From positions 1 through 38,659 of the forward strand of contig CASEKF010000008.1 of NCBI GenBank assembly GCA_949288455.1: 38,659 nucleotides of DNA, in the 5' to 3' direction. Positions 6,608-29,079 of this stretch are shown piece after piece. Position 1 is the stretch's first letter. Every line of letters starts with the position of its first letter. Origin of the DNA: an uncultured bacterium. GTDB taxonomy: Bacteria > Vulcanimicrobiota > CADAWZ01. The position numbers and the translations under genes were made by a program. The notes under the pieces are model-generated. The model did no database searches and was not told the DNA's origin. It saw only the letters and a list, made by a program, of their open reading frames with translations.

Positions 6608-7930
6608 ATGTCTAAATTGAACGCAAAGAGCGGCGGCGATTTAAAACGGCGAACTTACGAAGGAGCTTCCGGCGGAAATTTATCTTCCGTAGAAATTTTG
6701 AGGCGTTCCGTTATGTCTTGCTTGCTTTGGGAAGGAGAATTTTACGAATCCGGAACGACGATTTCAAAACGTATTTCTTCTTTAATTTCCTTGGTTGCTC
6801 CCGAAGAAGCTATGGCCATTGCGGATGAAGCCAGAAACAAGATGAACGTTAGACATGTACCTCTTTTAATTGCCAGGGAGATGGCAAGATTGCCTAAACA
6901 TAAGGCTTTTGTTGCCGAAACGTTAAAAAAAATAATTCGCCGCCCCGACGAAATGACAGAATTTCTAGCTCTTTATTGGAAGGATGGCAGACAACCTTTA
7001 TCTTCGCAGGTAAAAAAAGGTTTGGCGTCGGTATTCGGCTCTTTCGACGAATATCAGATGGCAAAATATAATAGAAGAAAAGACTCCGTCTCTTTTAGAG
7101 ATCTTATGTTTTTAGTTCATCCTAAACCTGAGGGGAAAGAGAAGGAAGACCTGTTTAGACGCTTAGCCGCCGACGAACTGCAAACGCCGGATACTTGGGA
7201 GACTGCTCTCTCTAGAGGAGACGACAAAAAAGCGACTTGGACAAGACTTCTTTTAGAAGGTAAGTTAGGCGATTTAGCTCTTTTAAGAAATTTGAGAAAT
7301 ATGCTTTCCGTTGGAGTTGATATCGGAATCATCAAGTCTGCTTTAAAAAAGATTCATTCGGAGAAGATTTTGCCGTTTAGGTTTATAAGCGCCGTCGCTT
7401 GCGCTCCTGAACTAAAAAGCGAACTTGAAGAAGCTATGCTTAGTTCTTTAGCTGAATTTAAGAAATTAAAAGGACTAACGGCGATGATGGTAGACGTATC
7501 GGGGTCTATGTTTTCTTATTTGTCTACCGGATCGGCTATGTCTAGAATGGACGCGGCGAACGCTCTTGCGATTATGATTCGCGAAATCTGTGAAAACGCT
7601 TATATATTTACTTTTTCTGATAGATTGGCGTCTATTCCGCAGAATATCAGAGGTTTTGAACTTATTTCGGCTATCGGCGCTTCGCAGAAAAATTCAGGCA
7701 CGTATCTTGGATTAGCCGTTAAAACCGTGAACGATATGGAAAATTACGACAGAATTATAGTCATAACTGACGAACAGTCTGCCGATCCTATTCCTTCTCC
7801 AAAAACCAGAGGATATATGATCAATTTGGCGTCCTGCGAATACGGTATAGGATATGGGCCTTGGATCCACATCGACGGCTGGTCTTCGGCTGTAGTTCAA
7901 TATATTTCCGAATATGAGAAAACTTTCTAG
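6608..7930 (+). CDS. TROVE/vWA domain protein, Ro60 (Rsr) homologue
   Basis: Bacterial relative of the Ro60 autoantigen, a ring-shaped protein that binds misfolded or Y-type noncoding RNAs and in Deinococcus (Rsr) works with polynucleotide phosphorylase in RNA degradation. The N-terminal TROVE part (about residues 20-285) is alpha-helical HEAT-like and has the recognisable REMARLPKHK and FRDLMFLVHPKP segments. The C-terminal von Willebrand A domain (about 288-435) has an intact MIDAS: DVSGS with D296, S298 and S300, a later SGTYLG Thr, and VITDEQSAD. The length of 440 is shorter than human Ro60 (about 538) but usual for bacterial forms. An AAGGAGG site precedes the ATG. It is the last gene of the peptidase-add operon and ends at a strong terminator. 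I found no Y RNA-like sequence in the adjacent spacers. Confidence 0.92.
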   Translation: MSKLNAKSGGDLKRRTYEGASGGNLSSVEILRRSVMSCLLWEGEFYESGTTISKRISSLISLVAPEEAMAIADEARNKMNVRHVPLLIAREMARLPKHKAFVAETLKKIIRRPDEMTEFLALYWKDGRQPLSSQVKKGLASVFGSFDEYQMAKYNRRKDSVSFRDLMFLVHPKPEGKEKEDLFRRLAADELQTPDTWETALSRGDDKKATWTRLLLEGKLGDLALLRNLRNMLSVGVDIGIIKSALKKIHSEKILPFRFISAVACAPELKSELEEAMLSSLAEFKKLKGLTAMMVDVSGSMFSYLSTGSAMSRMDAANALAIMIREICENAYIFTFSDRLASIPQNIRGFELISAIGASQKNSGTYLGLAVKTVNDMENYDRIIVITDEQSADPIPSPKTRGYMINLASCEYGIGYGPWIHIDGWSSAVVQYISEYEKTF

Positions 7931-14099: not shown

Positions 14100-14996
14100 T
14101 TAATTATTTTTTAAACGCTTTATAATTTCTCTTAATTTTTCTATCAGACTTTCGTCCGCTCCCGTCAAAGGAAGTCTTGTTTCTCCCGCGTTAAAGCCCG
14201 TTATTTTAAGCGCGGCTTTAACCGGAATAGGATTAGTAGTTTCAAATAAAACTTTAAATAAAGGCAGTAATTTTAAATGCAGTTGAAGGGCTTCTTTAAC
14301 GCGCCCTTTTAAAAATTCTTCGATCATGGCGTTTATTTTGACCCCGGCTATGTGTGACGCCACGCTTATGACTCCGGAAGCTCCGCAGGCGATCATTGGA
14401 AGAGTGAGCGAATCGTCGCCGCTGTATATTTCGAACGTTTTATTTTCCGTTATGTTCATCATTTCTGATAAGGCGGAAGTTTGATCTAAATTTCCGACCG
14501 CGTCTTTAACCGCGCATATATGCGGGAAGTCCGAATGAAGTTTCTTTATCGTTTCGTTGGATATATTGACTCCGGTTCTTCCGGGTATATTGTAAAGGAT
14601 TATCGGAATTTGGCATTCTTCGGCAATTTTTGCAAAGTGTCTGTAAAGTCCTTCTTGAGGCGGTTTATTATAGTAAGGAGCTACCAGAAGCAAGGCGTCC
14701 GCCCCTTCATCAATGGCTCGTTTAGACTTCTCTACGGTCGTTTTGGTATCGTTTGTCCCGGTTCCCGCTATAACGGGAAATCTATCTTTAGCCGCGTTTT
14801 TTACCGCTCTTAAAAGTTCCGTTTGTTCATCTTGCGTAAGCGTCGGAGATTCTCCCGTAGTTCCGCATACCAAAATGGCGGAAGATCCTTCTTCGTATAA
14901 TTTTAACGCTAATTCTGCCCCTTTGGCCGAGTCTAGTTTGCCATGCTTGTCAAACGGAGTGACCATAGCGGTTATAACATGTCCGAATTTTTTCAT
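14100..14996 (-). CDS. dapA: 4-hydroxy-tetrahydrodipicolinate synthase
   Basis: Schiff-base aldolase that condenses pyruvate with aspartate semialdehyde, the first step of the lysine and meso-diaminopimelate branch. Hallmarks: CGTTGESPTL (residues 44-53), YNIPGRTG with the proton-relay Tyr135 and Arg140, and the Schiff-base Lys164 in AVKDAVGN. Length 298 is normal. A strong GGAGG site precedes the ATG. It is followed after 13 bases by RNase J. The 95-base gap upstream, after the NadE fusion, contains no obvious terminator. Confidence 0.96.
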   Translation of the reverse strand: MKKFGHVITAMVTPFDKHGKLDSAKGAELALKLYEEGSSAILVCGTTGESPTLTQDEQTELLRAVKNAAKDRFPVIAGTGTNDTKTTVEKSKRAIDEGADALLLVAPYYNKPPQEGLYRHFAKIAEECQIPIILYNIPGRTGVNISNETIKKLHSDFPHICAVKDAVGNLDQTSALSEMMNITENKTFEIYSGDDSLTLPMIACGASGVISVASHIAGVKINAMIEEFLKGRVKEALQLHLKLLPLFKVLFETTNPIPVKAALKITGFNAGETRLPLTGADESLIEKLREIIKRLKNN

Positions 14997-15091: not shown

Positions 15092-16357
15092 TTAAAGCTC
15101 AAAAACCGGAGGAGGTATGATTTTATGTCTTCCGGCCGCATGCATCGCGTCTATTTTTGCTTTTATTTGTTCGTCTTGGCATACGCCTGTTTTTATGTAT
15201 TCATTTAGGATTTTGTAGGAGAACCCTATTTTTTCTTCGTCCGTTTTGCCGCTTAGGCCGTCCGAAGGAGTCTTTCTGGTAAATTTTTCAGGAAGTCCTA
15301 AAGCGTCTCCGAGAGCTATGACTTCTTCCGTAGTTAAATTTCCTATAACGTTTAAATCGAAGGCTCCGTCTCCCCATTTTGTGAAATAGCCTATATATTT
15401 TTCGCTTAAGTTGCCCGTACCGCAAACTAAATATCCTCTGTTTTGAGCGGCGGCATATAACGCCGTCATTCTTAGCCTGGGAGCCATATTTATTTTGGAA
15501 GCTTCGTTTAAAGGAGTTCCGAAGGCTTTTAAAATTCCTTTGTAAGCTTCTTCTATGTTGACCGTTATGTTTGGAATCTGCAGATATTCGCATAAGTCTT
15601 TGCTATATTCTATGTCAGGTTGGATTCCGTTTGGCATGAGAACGCCTAGGACGTTGTTTCTCCCCACGCTTTCGACTAGCAGGGCGGCCGTAACGGAGCT
15701 GTCTTTTCCTCCTGAAATACCTACTGCGAACCCGTTGCATCGCGTCTCTTTTTTAATTCGTTTTATCCATTCCTTCATTTCTTCAAGGATTATTTCCGGA
15801 GTTTTGACGTCCGATTTTCTGCGGACGACTTCTATTTGCATGGATTCCATAACGTCCAGAGCTTTATAATGGGCGTCTTTTGAAATCCCTGAACAACATG
15901 ACGCGTCTATTGTTATTTTAGCTTCCGGAAAAGCCGCTTTTAATATGGCGGCGTTTGATATTACGCATATTTCGGTGACTACGCCGCATATTTCTATTTC
16001 GTCGGGTATTTGCAGACTTGCGGATTTTATTACTTCGGGGAGTTGAAGAGAGCCGAATTGATTTTTTTTAATTTTAAAAATTCGTTTTTTATTTTTTAAC
16101 AGGTTTTCCAGATCTCCGTAAAGCTCAGCTCCTTCGGAACCTTCGAGACAATGGGGGACGGGGAGTTTCAAGCCTTCCTGAGTATTCAGGTAATTTTCGT
16201 TATGAACGTCGTAAGTTATAAAAATCTCTCGTTTATCTTTTAGCGCTTCAGAAATTTTTTCTTTTATGTTATTTAATAATTTAACGGCTTCGGCAGAAGC
16301 CAAAGAACCCGTCGTGAAATCGCGTTGATAATCTATTAAAACTAAAATTTTTCTCAT
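15092..16357 (-). CDS. Fusion: nicotinamidase-like cysteine hydrolase + NH3-dependent NAD synthetase
   Basis: Two domains in one chain. Residues 1 to about 182 are an isochorismatase/nicotinamidase-type cysteine hydrolase. They carry the catalytic Asp9 in IDYQRDF, a putative metal site YDVH (D50, H52) and LPVPHC (H69), a catalytic Lys at 96 or 98, and nucleophile Cys131 in GVVTEICV. Residues about 190-421 are the ATP-pyrophosphatase domain of NAD synthetase with the SGGKDS P-loop at 215-220, a CGTGNLSEKYIGYFTKWGD block and a GLSGKTDEEKIG segment. NadE amidates nicotinate adenine dinucleotide to NAD+. Glutamine-using NadE has a nitrilase domain; here a different amidase occupies that N-terminal place. 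A nicotinamidase would release ammonia and make nicotinate, so both products feed NAD synthesis. A GGAGG lies 12 bases before the ATG. First gene of the minus-strand run. Domain calls are firm; channelling is inference. Confidence 0.92.
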   Translation of the reverse strand: MRKILVLIDYQRDFTTGSLASAEAVKLLNNIKEKISEALKDKREIFITYDVHNENYLNTQEGLKLPVPHCLEGSEGAELYGDLENLLKNKKRIFKIKKNQFGSLQLPEVIKSASLQIPDEIEICGVVTEICVISNAAILKAAFPEAKITIDASCCSGISKDAHYKALDVMESMQIEVVRRKSDVKTPEIILEEMKEWIKRIKKETRCNGFAVGISGGKDSSVTAALLVESVGRNNVLGVLMPNGIQPDIEYSKDLCEYLQIPNITVNIEEAYKGILKAFGTPLNEASKINMAPRLRMTALYAAAQNRGYLVCGTGNLSEKYIGYFTKWGDGAFDLNVIGNLTTEEVIALGDALGLPEKFTRKTPSDGLSGKTDEEKIGFSYKILNEYIKTGVCQDEQIKAKIDAMHAAGRHKIIPPPVFEL

Positions 16358-16616: not shown

Positions 16617-17600
16617 ATGAAGAAACTTATAGGTTTAGTTATCGCCGGAGTTTTCGTATTTGGAGCTGTCTCGGCTATCGACGCGGCGACCGTAAATAGG
16701 GTTCAGACTAAGCAGGTTATTAATACGACGCATAATACCACTACGGTTGAAAATAGAATTTTTAAAGGCTATGCGGCGCATGCGTTCGGCACTTTCTGGG
16801 ATAACGACTGGGATAACGCTTCGATAAAACGCGTATCGATGTCCGATACCGAGAAGCAAAATCTTCAAAATAGGCAGTTTTCTGCCGGAACTACTTGGTA
16901 TTACGACGCTGAGAATGACATTGTTTCGACTCAGCCTTTCGAAAATTGGAGCGAACAAGAGTATTCTACGTCTTCAGCTACTAAGACATACGTGAAAGAC
17001 GGCGTAATGGTTACCGAGGTAAGCACCAATTTATTAATAGAGACTACCGATCATGTTTATCAGGTCGTATTTGACGGATATGATTCTTCTCCTATAGTTC
17101 TCGACGTAAACGGCGATAAGCTGATAGACGTCGCCAACAGAGAATGGACAAAACATGCTCCCAAATTCTATGGCGCATACGCTAAATTCTTTGATATCAC
17201 CGGAGACGGCAGCGCGGATTATACCGAATGGGTCGCTTCTAACACCGGAGACGCTCTTTTGGTAATGCCTGAAAACGGCGAAATAACAAGCGCTCTTCAG
17301 CTTTTCGGAACTGCCGGCGGATATACCGACGGTTATGAAAAACTCTCTATCGTATGCGATAAAGATAAAAACGGATGGGTTGAGGGAGAAGAGCTTGAAG
17401 GACTCGCTCTTTGGATTGACGGTAACAGCGACGGTATAGCTCAGCCCGAAGAAATAAGAACTCTCGAAGAATTCGGAATATCTTCCATCTCTACCGCTCA
17501 CAACAATTATACGGGCATTTATAAAACTTCTGACGGCGAAACTAGAGTAAGTTGGGACTGGTGGCCTTGCGTAGCTCAGTGCCGCAAATTTGAGAAATAA
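16617..17600 (+). CDS. Secreted EF-hand-like calcium-binding protein (327 aa)
   Basis: Exported protein with a Sec signal peptide (MKKLIGLV, core to about residue 22, likely cleavage after DAA). Its C-terminal half carries four acidic loops of the DxDxDG kind: DVNGDKLID, DITGDGSADY, DKDKNGWVEGEE and DGNSDGIAQPEE. The arrangement, ending in a SALQLFG segment, resembles the calcium-binding module found near the C-terminus of many RTX-type secreted proteins, but no RTX nonapeptide repeats or enzymatic domain are present. The N-terminal half is Thr/Trp-rich and unrecognised. A very strong AAGGAGG site and its own terminator at 17625 suggest a well-translated single-gene transcript. Calcium binding is inferred from the loops. 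Confidence 0.75.
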   Translation: MKKLIGLVIAGVFVFGAVSAIDAATVNRVQTKQVINTTHNTTTVENRIFKGYAAHAFGTFWDNDWDNASIKRVSMSDTEKQNLQNRQFSAGTTWYYDAENDIVSTQPFENWSEQEYSTSSATKTYVKDGVMVTEVSTNLLIETTDHVYQVVFDGYDSSPIVLDVNGDKLIDVANREWTKHAPKFYGAYAKFFDITGDGSADYTEWVASNTGDALLVMPENGEITSALQLFGTAGGYTDGYEKLSIVCDKDKNGWVEGEELEGLALWIDGNSDGIAQPEEIRTLEEFGISSISTAHNNYTGIYKTSDGETRVSWDWWPCVAQCRKFEK

Positions 17601-17624
17601 AATTTCGCAAGTTTAGGTTTTTTT

Positions 17625-17653
17625 AAGGAAGAGACTTTAGTCTCTTCCTTTTT
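17625..17653 (+). terminator. Rho-independent terminator after EF-hand gene
   Basis: A perfect 12-bp stem (17625-17636 with 17639-17650) and a minimal 2-base loop are followed by a T run. It lies 25 bases after the stop codon. Confidence 0.88.
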
Positions 17654-17690
17654 AGCGTTAACTAAAGTTAAGGAAAGGAATTCGCTCATT

Positions 17691-18821
17691 ATGATAAAAA
17701 AGCTTATTGTCGCGTCGTTTCTTATTTGTCTTTGCGCGTCTTTAATTTTTGCCGAAGACGCGGCAAAAATTAAAGATCTGTCTTATTCGCATCTTCAGTC
17801 TATTCTAAAAGATAAGACGTTTTCCGGCGGAGACATCAAGCATTTTGCTGAAACCGGCAATTTGTTTATAGTGGCCAGAGACGTTAAAACGAAAAAATTG
17901 TCCTGGCGAGTTTATAACCCTTATTCCGGTAAAATTTTGAAAGAAGGAGCCTGTCCTTTTGTAGAATATACGGCCGTTAATATAAATTCGCCCGGCACAA
18001 AAGCTTTAGTTTTCGGAAGATATCCTACCGCGGTTTGGGCGCTTGATATAGAGAGCGGCAAATGGGAACAGGGATATAAAAATCCGGTTAAATCCGGATT
18101 GGCCATAATTCCAATCTCTTATCCCAGCGCTATGGGAAATTCGTTTAGATCGATTTTTGATTTATGGAATGACGATCATGCCGTTAAAGATACGTTTATA
18201 GTAGCGATAAATCCGGAACCGTTTAAAATAGAGAGAATCGCGTCTCTTCCAAATTTGAAGAAAGAAGCTTTGAAGCTTATTAAAATTGGAGAAGGCGAAT
18301 CGTTTGTTTCTGGAATGTCTACCGCTTCTTCTACGGGAGATTTGCTTTTTGTCCTTGAAAACGGTCAGGTTAGAGAAAAACGTAGAGAAATTTTGTTTTT
18401 GAGAAAAAACAGCGGAGAGATCTCAGTAATCGAAGACGTGAAAGGCAAGAAAATACTGCCCTTAGATATCGAAGAGAGTTCGATTTTGTACGCAGTCGGA
18501 GGAGGTAAAGATCAAAAAGCTACCGACGTATTTATGTCTACGTACGCTATGGATAAGACTCTAGTTTTTAATAAAGGCAACGCCTTAGCGGGATCTATTC
18601 TTAAAGACGGCAATTTTATGATTTATTCTTCCGAAACGGCCGGCAATTACGTTTATTTTGGAAAAGCTGGAAATATGCAGCGAATTTTAAGATCTGCCGA
18701 TCCAGACGCTAAGATAGGTATTCTTCCGGACGCCGGCAAATTTTATATGATTTGTAAAGATAAATATTCATATTACGCGATTCCTACGACAACATCGTCA
18801 AAAGAAACCGGAAGCAAATAA
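17691..18821 (+). CDS. Secreted hypothetical protein, possible beta-propeller (376 aa)
   Basis: Family not recognised. The N-terminus is a clear Sec signal peptide (MIKKLIVASF, likely cleavage after IFA at about residue 21), so the product is periplasmic or outside the cell. The rest is strand-rich, with recurring short patterns of the type LFIVARDVKTKKLSW, ALVFGRYPTAVWALDIESG and LFVLENGQVREK. These look like irregular blades of a beta-propeller, but no canonical WD or NHL repeat is visible. An AAGGAAAGG site precedes the ATG. It follows the EF-hand gene's terminator by about 40 bases, so it is probably transcribed separately or by read-through. Confidence 0.65.
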   Translation: MIKKLIVASFLICLCASLIFAEDAAKIKDLSYSHLQSILKDKTFSGGDIKHFAETGNLFIVARDVKTKKLSWRVYNPYSGKILKEGACPFVEYTAVNINSPGTKALVFGRYPTAVWALDIESGKWEQGYKNPVKSGLAIIPISYPSAMGNSFRSIFDLWNDDHAVKDTFIVAINPEPFKIERIASLPNLKKEALKLIKIGEGESFVSGMSTASSTGDLLFVLENGQVREKRREILFLRKNSGEISVIEDVKGKKILPLDIEESSILYAVGGGKDQKATDVFMSTYAMDKTLVFNKGNALAGSILKDGNFMIYSSETAGNYVYFGKAGNMQRILRSADPDAKIGILPDAGKFYMICKDKYSYYAIPTTTSSKETGSK

Positions 18822-19894: not shown

Positions 19895-21092
19895 AATAAT
19901 TTTTTGTAAAGAAATGACTGAGATTTTTAGAAATGTCAGTTTATTTTTTATTTTGATCGTTTTTCCCGCGGTAGTTTATCCGTTCGTTATAAGCTATATA
20001 GGAGAGACCGCCCAAAAAGAACAGAATAAATTAGATATGTCCATAAGCAGAATATATCTGCGAAACGACGCGAAAGTTCCTTATGTTGAAGAATATTTTT
20101 TAGAGGACGACAAAATTACGCTGGTTGAAACGCCGAATTCCAAAATTGGCAAGGATTGCGATTTAACCGTAAAATTTGAGAAATCTCCCGATTTATTTAA
20201 GACGGAATATGAAAATTATTCCGTAAAAGTGACTTACGATTCCACAAGTAAAAAATCGACGAAAGCTTTAGAAAGAGCCGAACTCATTTTGAAGGATATT
20301 ACAAAGGAAACGCTCTATTCCAGGATTGAAGAAAAACAAATCGATATAGAGATTCTTTCTCCTTTCTCTATAGGTAAAATTAATTTAGCGTCAAAACATG
20401 ACATAGTTTCCGACATGCTTGCGGATGTTCTCCCTTTTATGATTATCATTTTCATTATGTCCGGAGCCTTACAGATAGCCGTAGATATTACGGCGGGAGA
20501 GAAAGACAGAAAAACGATACAGACTCTTTTAATGTCCTGCGTTTTAAACGGCGAAATCGCCGTCGCTAAAATTTTAGTGGTAGCTTCCTCAGCTTTAATA
20601 TGCTGCTTCTCAAATTTTTTAAGCATTTGTTTAGCCGTGAGGTTTGCGCCTTCTTCTTTTAGCTATATTCAATATCTTTCTTTTCCAGTTTCAGCTTTAT
20701 TTACCTGTATCGCGTCTCTTCTTCCTTTGATTTTGTTTATAGCAGCTTTGCTTGTATTAATAGGCATAGCCGCTAAGAATCAAGTTGAGGCGAGCCTTTA
20801 TTCTATGCCTGTCTTGATGTTCGGGATGTTGGCTTTGATATCTTCTTCGGCGTCAAGCGCAGAGTCTTTTAACTTTTTGTCTTGTTTGATCCCGGTGTCT
20901 AACTCGGCCGTTTCTATAAAACTGATCATGACTTCGTCTTCGGGATCTTTGTATATCGCCGCTTCTATTTTATCAAATCTCGTTTATTCTTTTTTCATTG
21001 TTTTTTTGTGCGTCAAAGCTTTTCAAAATGAAAACGTTGTGTTCTACGGCGTGTCCGGTTTACTTCATTTTAAGAAAAGCCGCCGATTATAA
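19869..21092 (+). CDS. ABC-2 type permease (NatB-like)
   Basis: Membrane subunit partnering the preceding ATPase. The N-terminal pattern (KEMTEIFRN, then a hydrophobic helix at about 22-42) and a large polar extracytoplasmic loop of about 145 residues, followed by five or six hydrophobic helices from about 190 on, fit the NatB/ABC-2 permease plan. The cytoplasmic-side motif AGEKDRKTIQTLLMS is typical of the family. Translation starts inside the ATPase gene. Its stop codon overlaps that of the convergent pseudopilin gene (shared bases 21087-21092), so no terminator separates them. Confidence 0.88.
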   Translation: MKISLKRIKIIFCKEMTEIFRNVSLFFILIVFPAVVYPFVISYIGETAQKEQNKLDMSISRIYLRNDAKVPYVEEYFLEDDKITLVETPNSKIGKDCDLTVKFEKSPDLFKTEYENYSVKVTYDSTSKKSTKALERAELILKDITKETLYSRIEEKQIDIEILSPFSIGKINLASKHDIVSDMLADVLPFMIIIFIMSGALQIAVDITAGEKDRKTIQTLLMSCVLNGEIAVAKILVVASSALICCFSNFLSICLAVRFAPSSFSYIQYLSFPVSALFTCIASLLPLILFIAALLVLIGIAAKNQVEASLYSMPVLMFGMLALISSSASSAESFNFLSCLIPVSNSAVSIKLIMTSSSGSLYIAASILSNLVYSFFIVFLCVKAFQNENVVFYGVSGLLHFKKSRRL

Positions 21093-23663
21093 TTTATTGT
21101 AATATACCGAAGTAAAGTTTACGGGCGGAGCGCCGTTATAATTGGCTACGAACGCTTGTACGTCGGAGGAGTCGTATACTACGCTGAAATTCTTACAGTC
21201 GTTAATTACTATATCTCCGCATCCTATTCCAAGAAGAGAAACCGAGTCGGAAAGGCCGACTCCGGATCCCGGATTGGAGCCGGAACTTGGATCGGCTCCG
21301 TAAGATACCAGCGCTCCGTTTATTGTGAAGTCTTCTCCGCCTCCGTCTGCGGCAAAACCTCCGCATGTATATATTACTCCGCTGAATGTTGCCGGAGAAC
21401 GCTCAAAAAACGAAATTAGATCTGCGGAAGCCGGAGTCTTATATATTGTATCCGTGTTTCCGTTTTGCTTCGTTTTAATCTCGGTATTATAATTCCTCTC
21501 TACGTTGTTTTTCACCAGCATTTCCGCTTCGTAACGGCTGTAGCCGTAACCTTGTGTCATAAGCTTAAGAATCGAAACTTCTTCTCCCGCTTTCAGCTTT
21601 TGGGACGTAGAATTTGCGGTTACTTTAAGCAGGTCTTCATTTGTTATTTTAATTTTTTTATCCAATATTTTGCTTACTAATGCATCAATGCTGCTTCCTT
21701 GGATATTAATCATCGCTTCTTTTAATCTGTTATATAAATTGTCGATATTGTCTATTTGCCGAACATGTCCCATTTTTACGGAACCTTTTGCATATATTGC
21801 CAGATTGCTCGTATTATAGTCGCTGTCTTGCGAGTTTATTTCGCTTCCCGCTTCCATAAATACGGAATTCCCTCCCAGCACTTGCCCGTTTCCCGATAAT
21901 TTGCCTTTTATTATTACCGGGCCTTCGCTGTATATCGTTACGGCCTGTTCTCCGAGTTTTGACGAGAGAATGGACGTTTTGGAAGTAGATTTGAAAATCA
22001 ACATATTTTCAAAGTTATCGGGAAGATGCTTGCTTCCAAGTTTTACGTTGGCGTTTACGCCTATTAAAGGCGTAAGCAGAGAATTATCAGAGCCTTCGTT
22101 GTCTTTTTGTAAAGTCAAAAAAGATATGCCCCCGGAGCCTTCCACTTTTACGGAGTTTTTTATCTCGACTATCGGCGTCAGCTTATTGTTAATAAGAGCG
22201 GTCTCTATCGAGAAGTTTTCGTCGTTTGACATATCCTGCGCAAAATAGGCGAATACGTTGTCGTCTTCAAGTATTTCATGTTGGTTTTGTCGCGTAAATA
22301 TGTTTCCGTTTTGCGCGGTTATTGAAGGTTCAGAAGGTTCTTTATTGTTTTCAGGATCCTCTTTCCATGCAGCAAGCTGTTCCCAATATTTATTCAGTTC
22401 ATCGTCGAACTTTTCTTTATCCGTCTCCGCTTTTATCCTGGCGTTTAGTATTTCCTGGATTATATTCGTACTTTCAGTGTCCTGGCTCGCTTCGCCCTGA
22501 GCGTTCGCGTATTCTCCGGTAGGAAGAAGATAATTATTGTTCGATATGTAGTACAGTTTATACGCGTTTTTTTGTTTATGCCATATCGCCGCGTAAGTTC
22601 CTGATTTTATAGAATTTAAGTTCAGTTCGCTTATCGAGTCCTGGATCTTGCCCCATGGCATAGACGGGAAAAGTTGTCCGTCGTATTTATCCACTTTTAT
22701 TCCGTATTTTCTCGCGATATAATTTGTCGAATCGTTATCCGAAGTCGTTATACTGGAGTTTTTCGTTTCGTTGGAATCTTCCAGGTTAAAAGTCGATCCG
22801 TAATATATCGTGCCGTCCTCTATAACGCAGGGAAATTTGTATTTTTCTGTTATTTCGGGATCAGGCGTTCTGGTAAGACTGAAATTGCCTTTGCAATAGA
22901 CTTCGGGTTGGGAGGTAGATTGCCTGGATATGCTAAAAATCGAACCTGTTCCGAGAATGTTTACTTTAATATCGCCTCCGGCGTATACGCCGGCTCCGAA
23001 AATATTGGAATTGTCGGCTATGATAAGATTCTCTATTATCGTTTTGTAAATGCCGCTTCTGCCTTCCGAAGCTATATATATTCCGGGCGAAGCTATGACG
23101 GCTTTATGCGATTTCGGTTTTGAGCATACTTCGATATATTCGTTATTAAATTTATCTAACGCGCTGTCGTCTTGTTTTACTCCTCCGGCCGTATCTTTTA
23201 TATCTATTGACGAATAAGAACAGTATGAAATATTCGCGGGTTCTTGAGGAAAAGAATCAGGAACTATGGATTGAATTTTTTCGCCTTCTATATCCCCGTC
23301 TTTTTGTGTTTTTTTCTTGGAAAAATATATTATGAATTCGGCAAAGTGTTCTTCCGATTTGCCATGGACTAAAAAACCGTCTCCATATTTCGTTTCATTT
23401 ACGGTAAAAGAGCCAAAGGTAGTCGGCTCGTATACGGATTTTGACGAGTCGAACGGCCAGCCTAAATTTTGTTTTAGCCTGTATTTACAATATTCGATGC
23501 CTGATTCCGCAGCCCATCGGCTCTTTACTTCGCCCGTAAATTTTTTAGTGAGAAAAAAACTTTCGTGCATGTTTTTTACCGCGCCGATTAGAAATATTGT
23601 TATGAAAGACGCGGCTATAATAACGTATATGATAAAAATTCCTCGTTTTTTTAACGCTTTCAT
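21087..23663 (-). CDS. Giant GspK/PilX-like minor pseudopilin, copy 2 (858 aa)
   Basis: Minor pilin-like protein with a single N-terminal membrane helix (about 9-31) after a short basic leader; the likely prepilin cleavage is at G8|I9. Position 5 of the mature chain is Tyr, not the Glu found in most type IV pilins. Lack of Glu5 is typical of GspK, the tip subunit of type II secretion pseudopili. The WAAESGIEYCKYRL segment matches the PilX/GspK N-terminal region. The ectodomain of about 820 residues is much larger than GspK (about 320) and contains strand-rich, beta-helix-like stretches (SPGIYIASEGRSG, GKLSGNGQVLGG, GVIYTCGGFAADGG). It is clearly paralogous to the gene at 26683-29079. The GGAG site is good. 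It follows a GspJ-like gene by 21 bases. Confidence 0.82.
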   Translation of the reverse strand: MKALKKRGIFIIYVIIAASFITIFLIGAVKNMHESFFLTKKFTGEVKSRWAAESGIEYCKYRLKQNLGWPFDSSKSVYEPTTFGSFTVNETKYGDGFLVHGKSEEHFAEFIIYFSKKKTQKDGDIEGEKIQSIVPDSFPQEPANISYCSYSSIDIKDTAGGVKQDDSALDKFNNEYIEVCSKPKSHKAVIASPGIYIASEGRSGIYKTIIENLIIADNSNIFGAGVYAGGDIKVNILGTGSIFSISRQSTSQPEVYCKGNFSLTRTPDPEITEKYKFPCVIEDGTIYYGSTFNLEDSNETKNSSITTSDNDSTNYIARKYGIKVDKYDGQLFPSMPWGKIQDSISELNLNSIKSGTYAAIWHKQKNAYKLYYISNNNYLLPTGEYANAQGEASQDTESTNIIQEILNARIKAETDKEKFDDELNKYWEQLAAWKEDPENNKEPSEPSITAQNGNIFTRQNQHEILEDDNVFAYFAQDMSNDENFSIETALINNKLTPIVEIKNSVKVEGSGGISFLTLQKDNEGSDNSLLTPLIGVNANVKLGSKHLPDNFENMLIFKSTSKTSILSSKLGEQAVTIYSEGPVIIKGKLSGNGQVLGGNSVFMEAGSEINSQDSDYNTSNLAIYAKGSVKMGHVRQIDNIDNLYNRLKEAMINIQGSSIDALVSKILDKKIKITNEDLLKVTANSTSQKLKAGEEVSILKLMTQGYGYSRYEAEMLVKNNVERNYNTEIKTKQNGNTDTIYKTPASADLISFFERSPATFSGVIYTCGGFAADGGGEDFTINGALVSYGADPSSGSNPGSGVGLSDSVSLLGIGCGDIVINDCKNFSVVYDSSDVQAFVANYNGAPPVNFTSVYYNKL

Positions 23664-26682: not shown

Positions 26683-29079
26683 TTAAGGCAGCCTTTCAAA
26701 ATATACTTGTTTAAGATTTGTAATTAAGGGAACTTCGTAATTTTCAACGAATGTTTTCAGATCTGTTTCGTCATATAGCACGGTAAAATTAGAACAGTTA
26801 TTTATCTCTATGTTTCCCGGAGCTATGCCTAAAAGAGATGTCTGTGAGATTCCGGCTCCTGAACCCGGAGTCGGAGTAGACGAGGGATCTCCTCCGTATG
26901 AGATCAAAATGCCGTTTAAGGTAAACGGTCCGTTTTCCATGTCGGCTGAAAAACCTCCGCATGTATATATGACTCCGCTGAAAGACGAAGGCGCTTTTGT
27001 TGAGGCAATTATTTCCGAAACGTCGTTGGGCATGTAGTAAACCGTCGTTTTTTGGGCTTGATGAGGAGACTTAATAGTTTTTGTCCTATAGTTTTGCTCG
27101 ACTAACTTGTATACTATCCATTCCGCTTCTCGTTTAGAGTAGCCGTAAGCTTTAGTCATAACCTTTTCCAGCGTTGGAAAGTTTTCTATTGAGATCGCGT
27201 TATGGATGTCTAAATCATTTATGTTGACTTTACTCCGCATTATGGATTGGACGATACTATGCAGGCTGCCGCCTGTTTCCCCTGCCGCGAGAGACTTCAT
27301 CTTATTGGTGAGTCCGTTTAGATTCTGCTTGTTCCCTGACGCCGTATATCCCATTTTGACGGAACCTTTGGCATATATCGCTATTTGACTTGAAGTTTCT
27401 TCTTCGTACTCGGGATCGTCATTCTGATTGTCGTTTCGATTTATGTTTAATTCGCTCCCCGCTTTAAAAAATATGCTTTCGCCTCCCAGAATTTGTCCGT
27501 CTCCGGTCAGTTTTCCTGATATTGATATTGGAGCTTGAGAATATAAAGTCGAAGGTATATGCTTGAATTTTGTCGTGAGGATAGAGCATAAAGATTCGCC
27601 GTCATATTGACGTTCTTTATATTCTTGTTCTTGGCCGAATTTTAATTCAAGAGGCAACGAAGATTGTCTAATCTTATGAGTGATAATCGGAGTCTGGGGA
27701 TTCGCGGCTGCTCCGGGCAGACTTGGAGGCATATTTTCGGAATCGACGTATGTTTCCAACCTTATAAACGACAATCCGTTTGCCGAGCCTCCTTCGGCTT
27801 TTACTGAGCTTTTAAGATAGATTACCGGCGTGTCGTTGTTATTATTTTTTGGCAAATCGACGTAAATTTTTCCATAATCTTCAGAATTTTGCGGCACTTT
27901 ATAAAATCCGTTTCCTTGAAGCATGGTTTCCATAGACGTCTGATCTAAATTAGGTCCAATCTCCATAACAAGTTGCGTGCCGTCGTAAGAATGGTAGTTC
28001 TCGCTGTAATATAAGTCGTATTTTCCGGTTTGTACGTTCTTAAGAGTCGCGTAAGTGCCGAGAGGCATAGAATTAGTTATTTCGTTTAAAGAAGATTCGG
28101 ATATGCTCTCCCATTTGACCGCGGGGAATTTATTGGAAGCGTTGTACTTTTCTATGTTTACTCCGTATTTTTTTGCAAAATTAAAAATTTGCGAGTGTTG
28201 CGTAGATGAAAATTGATCTTCAGCGTTTATTGTATCTCCCGATATATCGACTCTCGTTCCGTAATATATGGCTCCGTCGTCTACAGAACATGGATAAAGA
28301 TAGCCTGAAGACGCGTCGCCCTCAGGATCCTGATCTCTGTTGATCGAGAATGTGCCTTTACAAAATACGTCCGCTTTTGCGCTTGTCGTTTGAGCTACGG
28401 AAAACACCGCTTCGCTTCCTTTAAGACGTATGTTCATATCGCCTCCGGAATATACGCCGGCGCTGAAAAGGCTTAAATTGTCGGGTATGAGGAGTTTTGC
28501 CGTAGCGCATCTGTAAGCTCCGGAGCGTCCTTCCGAAGCTATGTATACGCCCGGAGATACTATCGTAGTTTTTTTATTTGAGGGAGTTTGAGATATTTCT
28601 ACGGTTTCGTCGTCAAAATTGCCGTCATATTCGTGGACGTTTTCTTCCGTGATAGAATTAAAAGACCAGTAATTAACCGATTTGCCTTCCGGATCGGAAT
28701 TTACTATTGAAACATACCCGTCTTTAGGTTCTTTTTTGTTTGAAAAATATATCAGAAATTCTGAATCTTCGTCTTCTGAGACGCCATGTATCGCGGCTAT
28801 ATTGCCAAAACGTTTTTCTCTAACGGTATAAGTTCCGAATTGTTCCGTCGTTTCGGGAGTTCCGAAGGGCCAGGCGGCGTTTTGCTGAATCCTGTAAAGA
28901 GCGTATTCATGACCTGAGGCAGAGGCCCAGTAAGCTTTAGTTTCTCCAAAAAATTTGGCGCTCTGGAATATCCCGTTATGTACGTTTTGAAGAGCGGCGG
29001 TCAAAAAAGTAGCTAATAGCGTTATGGTAAAGAGAACGTATATTATGAAAAAACCTTTTTTTTCCGAAGTTTTCATCAT
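26683..29079 (-). CDS. Giant GspK/PilX-like minor pseudopilin, copy 1 (798 aa)
   Basis: Paralogue of the protein at 21087-23663. Leader MMKTSEKKG, probable prepilin cleavage G9|F10, then a hydrophobic helix to about residue 31. Mature position 5 is Tyr, again lacking the usual Glu5, as in GspK. The two proteins share SPG(I/V)YIASEGRSG near residue 170, a (G/A)IYYG segment, (I/V)GGxSxFxxAGSE-type turns, IAIYAKGSVKMG, and GVIYTCGGF with a Ser/Pro-rich (PSST..PGSG) loop near the C-terminus. They are diverged but alignable over their full length. ATG with an AAGGGA site, 30 bases after the GspJ-like gene. Likely sits at the pseudopilus tip. Function in secretion or adhesion is inferred. Confidence 0.82.
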   Translation of the reverse strand: MMKTSEKKGFFIIYVLFTITLLATFLTAALQNVHNGIFQSAKFFGETKAYWASASGHEYALYRIQQNAAWPFGTPETTEQFGTYTVREKRFGNIAAIHGVSEDEDSEFLIYFSNKKEPKDGYVSIVNSDPEGKSVNYWSFNSITEENVHEYDGNFDDETVEISQTPSNKKTTIVSPGVYIASEGRSGAYRCATAKLLIPDNLSLFSAGVYSGGDMNIRLKGSEAVFSVAQTTSAKADVFCKGTFSINRDQDPEGDASSGYLYPCSVDDGAIYYGTRVDISGDTINAEDQFSSTQHSQIFNFAKKYGVNIEKYNASNKFPAVKWESISESSLNEITNSMPLGTYATLKNVQTGKYDLYYSENYHSYDGTQLVMEIGPNLDQTSMETMLQGNGFYKVPQNSEDYGKIYVDLPKNNNNDTPVIYLKSSVKAEGGSANGLSFIRLETYVDSENMPPSLPGAAANPQTPIITHKIRQSSLPLELKFGQEQEYKERQYDGESLCSILTTKFKHIPSTLYSQAPISISGKLTGDGQILGGESIFFKAGSELNINRNDNQNDDPEYEEETSSQIAIYAKGSVKMGYTASGNKQNLNGLTNKMKSLAAGETGGSLHSIVQSIMRSKVNINDLDIHNAISIENFPTLEKVMTKAYGYSKREAEWIVYKLVEQNYRTKTIKSPHQAQKTTVYYMPNDVSEIIASTKAPSSFSGVIYTCGGFSADMENGPFTLNGILISYGGDPSSTPTPGSGAGISQTSLLGIAPGNIEINNCSNFTVLYDETDLKTFVENYEVPLITNLKQVYFERLP

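Follow-up and report, generated by a model that had tools for sequence, protein, structure and literature searches.

A gene joining a cysteine hydrolase to NAD synthetase

The window analysed here is one contig of 38,659 nucleotides from a genome of 2.13 Mb (70 contigs, 98.9% complete). A single ORF of 421 codons on its minus strand occupies exactly positions 15092-16357; it begins with ATG and carries a Shine-Dalgarno-like GGAGG about 10 nt 5' of the start. The features of the gene and of its downstream neighbours are as follows.

15092-16357, minus strand: gene of the 421-aa fusion protein, a cysteine hydrolase resembling nicotinamidases joined to an ammonia-dependent NAD synthetase (NadE); assigned from the ORF, Pfam and orthologues
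15818-16357, minus strand: hydrolase (isochorismatase-family) domain, residues 1-180, with D9/K98/C131 and D50/H52/E61/H69; assigned from PF00857, alignment to 3o90 and conservation in 55 sequences
15095-15790, minus strand: NadE domain, residues 190-421, with the conserved ATP-pyrophosphatase signature SGGKDS at 215-220; assigned from PF02540, TIGR00552 and conservation
14100-14996, minus strand: dapA (dihydrodipicolinate synthase family), the next gene downstream; PF00701
12317-14086, minus strand: RNase J, following dapA; PF22505 and PF17770

The Pfam isochorismatase family PF00857 matches residues 4-179 of the encoded protein (2.9e-22) and the NAD synthase family PF02540 matches residues 191-402 (9.2e-53). 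The C-terminal half also scores above the NCBIfam cut-off for NadE, TIGR00552. These are the only two domains found by Pfam; a nitrilase or glutaminase domain was not detected in the chain. The sequence-only reading, which had described an isochorismatase-type amidase joined to NadE in one chain, with an unrelated amidase in the place taken by a nitrilase in other NadE enzymes, is thus an accurate description of the protein. The residues it had singled out (D9, D50, H52, H69, C131 and the SGGKDS motif at 215-220) are all at the positions given.

The same fusion is present in all four genomes of the source family that were examined, which represent three genera. The three orthologues (G001-G003) are about 420 residues long and 59-60% identical to the window protein; the join is therefore not an assembly error, and a frameshift or sequencing artefact is likewise ruled out. 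Outside this family the fusion was not found in the phylum (149 phylum genomes in all): other NadE matches cover the NadE part only, and relatives of the hydrolase domain are remote there, about 19-29% identical. The gene order fusion, dapA, RNase J is common to all four family genomes; neither dapA nor the RNase J gene has an evident link to NAD.

Several other genes in the window deserve a brief description. Divergent from the fusion gene, at 16617-18821 (plus strand), are two secreted-looking proteins of 327 and 376 aa that have no Pfam match. Two similar-looking proteins of 858 and 798 aa with prepilin-like N-termini, also devoid of Pfam matches, are encoded at 21087-23663 and 26683-29079 (both minus strand), and smaller prepilin-like genes adjoin both. 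A Ro60-like protein (TROVE domain PF05731 and a weak vWA part) is encoded at 6608-7930 (plus strand); the window contains no Y-RNA-like Rfam match and indeed no Rfam element at all.

The hydrolase domain and its active site

In a profile search with the hydrolase domain, the best matches were solved nicotinamidases and related hydrolases. Alignment to the nicotinamidase of Streptococcus pneumoniae (SpNic, 3o90) places its catalytic triad Asp9/Lys103/Cys136 onto D9/K98/C131 of the window protein, and its zinc site Asp53/His55/Glu64/His71 onto D50/H52/E61/H69. The roles of these SpNic residues have been described (PMC6271260). All seven equivalents are invariant in 55 of 55 sequences, including the catalytic lysine K98 and the fourth metal ligand E61, which the sequence-only reading had missed.

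The predicted structure of the fusion protein has a pLDDT of 94.4, indicating confidence within the domains, and a pTM of 0.75, indicating moderate confidence in their relative placement. Foldseek matched the model to SpNic (3o93, TM score 0.83 by target) and to structures of ammonia-dependent NadE. The likeness to PncA nicotinamidases (SpNic; Pyrococcus horikoshii, 1im5) thus extends to the fold and, for SpNic, to the triad and all four metal ligands. The window hydrolase differs from PncA in being fused to NadE and in belonging to a Clostridia-type subgroup with the motif T-x-E-G-x-x-L-P-V-x-H-C. We know of no characterised enzyme among its close relatives in this subgroup.

The domain scores far below the NCBIfam nicotinamidase cut-off (PRK11609; 23.6 bits against 174), but this model stands for a subgroup of the E. 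coli type, with no S. pneumoniae-type enzyme among the sequences scored on it, so that the result limits the label and not the function. The name nicotinamidase therefore rests on the active-site residues and the genomic context. On these grounds, the assignment of the N-terminal domain as a nicotinamidase is well supported, if not proven.

The synthetase half resembles single-domain, ammonia-dependent NadE enzymes (P. horikoshii, 2e18; Francisella tularensis, 3fiu) over the whole domain and its motifs, with 32-33% identity and a model that agrees; these enzymes lack the N-terminal hydrolase domain. Glutamine-dependent NadE, such as the Mycobacterium tuberculosis and human enzymes, likewise combines an ammonia-releasing amidase and a NAD synthetase in one chain. 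The amidase of the window protein, however, has an unrelated fold and a different presumed substrate, and a tunnel like that of the glutamine-dependent enzymes would be hypothetical here. A survey of more than 800 genomes found NadE to be either glutaminase-fused or single-domain (PMC3376133); the window protein fits neither class. We found no published description of a nicotinamidase-NadE fusion among the open-access papers searched. Neither half of the protein is unusual in itself; what is new is that the two are combined, and that this apparently happened twice (see below).

NAD salvage genes and the origin of the fusion

Of NadA, NadB and NadC, the search covered NadA, and it was found in none of the four family genomes. 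By comparison, 64 of 98 sampled genomes, a sample that includes these four, contain NadA, as does the nearest genome outside the family. Nicotinate phosphoribosyltransferase (PncB) is encoded in three of the four family genomes, among them that of the window, the exception being a genome that is 69% complete; NadD is encoded in all four. None of the four genomes encodes an isochorismatase-family protein besides the fusion, and no second NadE was found in that of the window. Because nadA is absent, pncB and nadD are present, and the fusion is the sole isochorismatase-family protein and sole NadE found, the organism seems to depend on niacin salvage, with no nicotinamidase or NAD synthetase evident other than the fusion. 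The PncB of the window's genome (G000:C45, L113 433-2187) is 584 aa long, about 100 aa longer than the NCBIfam models (440-488 aa), to which its matches are split over several stretches; the G002 protein is equally long.

The closest stand-alone relatives of the hydrolase domain are mostly in Clostridia and are up to 48% identical. Of 100 genes that lie on the same strand as a close stand-alone hydrolase gene and no more than 300 nt from it, 17 were identified as nadE, pncB or nadV, whereas 364 genes at distances above 2.5 kb include none (Fisher p = 1.5e-12, calculated from counts that are not fully independent, as the genomes are related). Nudix and PRPP-synthetase-like genes also recur beside these hydrolases. 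Of the 80 close relatives, many lack a recognised NAD gene in the neighbourhood. The Clostridia clusters of the hydrolase gene with nadE, pncB or nadV resemble the window in that two such proteins are encoded side by side on one strand, but they consist of separate genes. Several genomes have the hydrolase gene and nadE in tandem and in the same frame, with a single stop codon between them (L122-L126; G154, G155). One Clostridia locus (L103, 6001-8851) combines a nicotinamidase-like gene and nadE, which belong to the four-step route of nicotinamide salvage, with nadV of the two-step route and a PRPP-synthetase-like gene.

A true hydrolase-NadE fusion also occurs in four genomes (G289, G540, G564, G565) of one Clostridia order, of which 31 genomes were examined. 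A fifth candidate, G558 (L156), came up as a single open frame, but a TGA separates its two genes and it was left out of the count. Downstream of the fusion gene, G289 and G540 carry an NMN-adenylyltransferase-like gene; in G540 this precedes a nicotinate phosphoribosyltransferase-like gene that is truncated where the locus ends. Between them, the three G540 genes would suffice for the whole four-step conversion of nicotinamide to NAD. The G564 and G565 fusions (L154, L155) have a longer interdomain linker with several cysteines (e.g. CGQESCQVKSEAAECGG), as opposed to the short linker of the window protein.

The two fusion groups stay apart in the tree of either domain. Neither domain alone rejects a single origin of all fusions (AU p 0.10 and 0.16), but the concatenated alignment does so with an AU p of 0.00045, a somewhat flattering value given that the hypothesis was framed after seeing the single-domain trees. 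It thus appears from the sequence comparisons that the join between hydrolase and NadE was made twice in evolution, which hints at a benefit of bringing the two steps together. The window's fusion group branches with L103, a long branch in the tree and a Clostridia record in which the hydrolase gene, nadV and nadE are neighbours. The most likely origin of the window fusion, in our inference, is a hydrolase/nadE cluster of the Clostridia type that was transferred into the family and then fused.

Possible functions of the fusion protein

Making NAD from nicotinamide in four steps seems wasteful, as an amide is removed and ATP is then spent on restoring it (PMC9316036). The fusion protein is very probably a bifunctional enzyme of this route that combines the activities of PncA and NadE; we infer both activities, and any benefit of the fusion, from the data described above. 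C131, helped by D9 and K98, would attack the amide of a nicotinamide molecule held by the metal at D50/H52/E61/H69, and nicotinate and NH3 would be released. PncB and NadD, whose genes lie elsewhere in the genome, would convert nicotinate to nicotinic acid adenine dinucleotide, which the NadE domain would activate with ATP and amidate with ammonia, yielding NAD. The first step, which removes the amide, would be tied by the fusion to the last, which restores it, in a 1:1 ratio and in one place. The suggestion made from the sequence, that a nicotinamidase is paired here with NadE in a single salvage route, has gained strong support from the active-site residues, the neighbouring genes, the pathway content of the genomes and the second, apparently independent fusion.

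As for the join itself, it is quite possible that adjacent salvage genes simply lost the stop codon between them, giving equal amounts of the two enzymes and no new mechanism. Such a nearly neutral event is compatible with the enzymology proposed above for a bifunctional enzyme, and the tandem genes of close relatives, several of them separated in frame by one stop codon, show what its starting point could have been. It sits less easily with three genera having kept the fusion at about 60% identity, or with the apparent second origin elsewhere. A more elaborate explanation, raised already in the sequence-only reading, is that the hydrolase domain is not just one half of a bifunctional enzyme but the ammonia source of an amidotransferase, comparable to the nitrilase domain of glutamine-dependent NadE, and that its NH3 would reach the synthetase inside the protein or its dimer. 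NH3 is indeed the product of one site and a substrate of the other, in a 1:1 ratio (PMC9316036), a fused amidase and a tunnel are used by other NadE enzymes (PMC3376133, PMC6946656), and there are two lineages of the fusion. The protein would then be a second, separately evolved ammonia-coupled NAD synthetase, with nicotinamide instead of glutamine as the source of amide nitrogen, and with that nitrogen kept inside the complex and put back last. We consider both the coupling and this view of its evolution unlikely. NAD has also to be made from nicotinate, which brings no NH3 from the first domain, and free ammonium must therefore be usable; the PncB and NadD steps separate the two reactions in time; and Clostridia with separate genes evidently manage without a fusion. 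Coupling is not required, as the pathway would work with free ammonium.

The remaining explanation questions the substrate. Isochorismatase-family folds serve several substrates, such hydrolases are diverse, and three of the four family members have weak matches to biuret hydrolase. The domain could then act on another amide, for instance another pyridine carboxamide or a ureide, and supply or regulate NadE or be joined to it for some other reason. The completeness of the SpNic active site and metal site, the strong association with NAD salvage genes and the status of the domain as the sole such protein in a genome with pncB and nadD and without nadA make this explanation improbable, and we rank it lowest. 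The reading of the protein as a combined nicotinamidase and NAD synthetase also lends support to the name nicotinamidase for a large group of cysteine hydrolases from gut Clostridia that are so far uncharacterised. The fusion is a compact system for testing the coupling of ammonia or of flux. The presence of the deamidating and the reamidating enzyme in one protein, with apparently two separate origins, points to coordination of the two steps.
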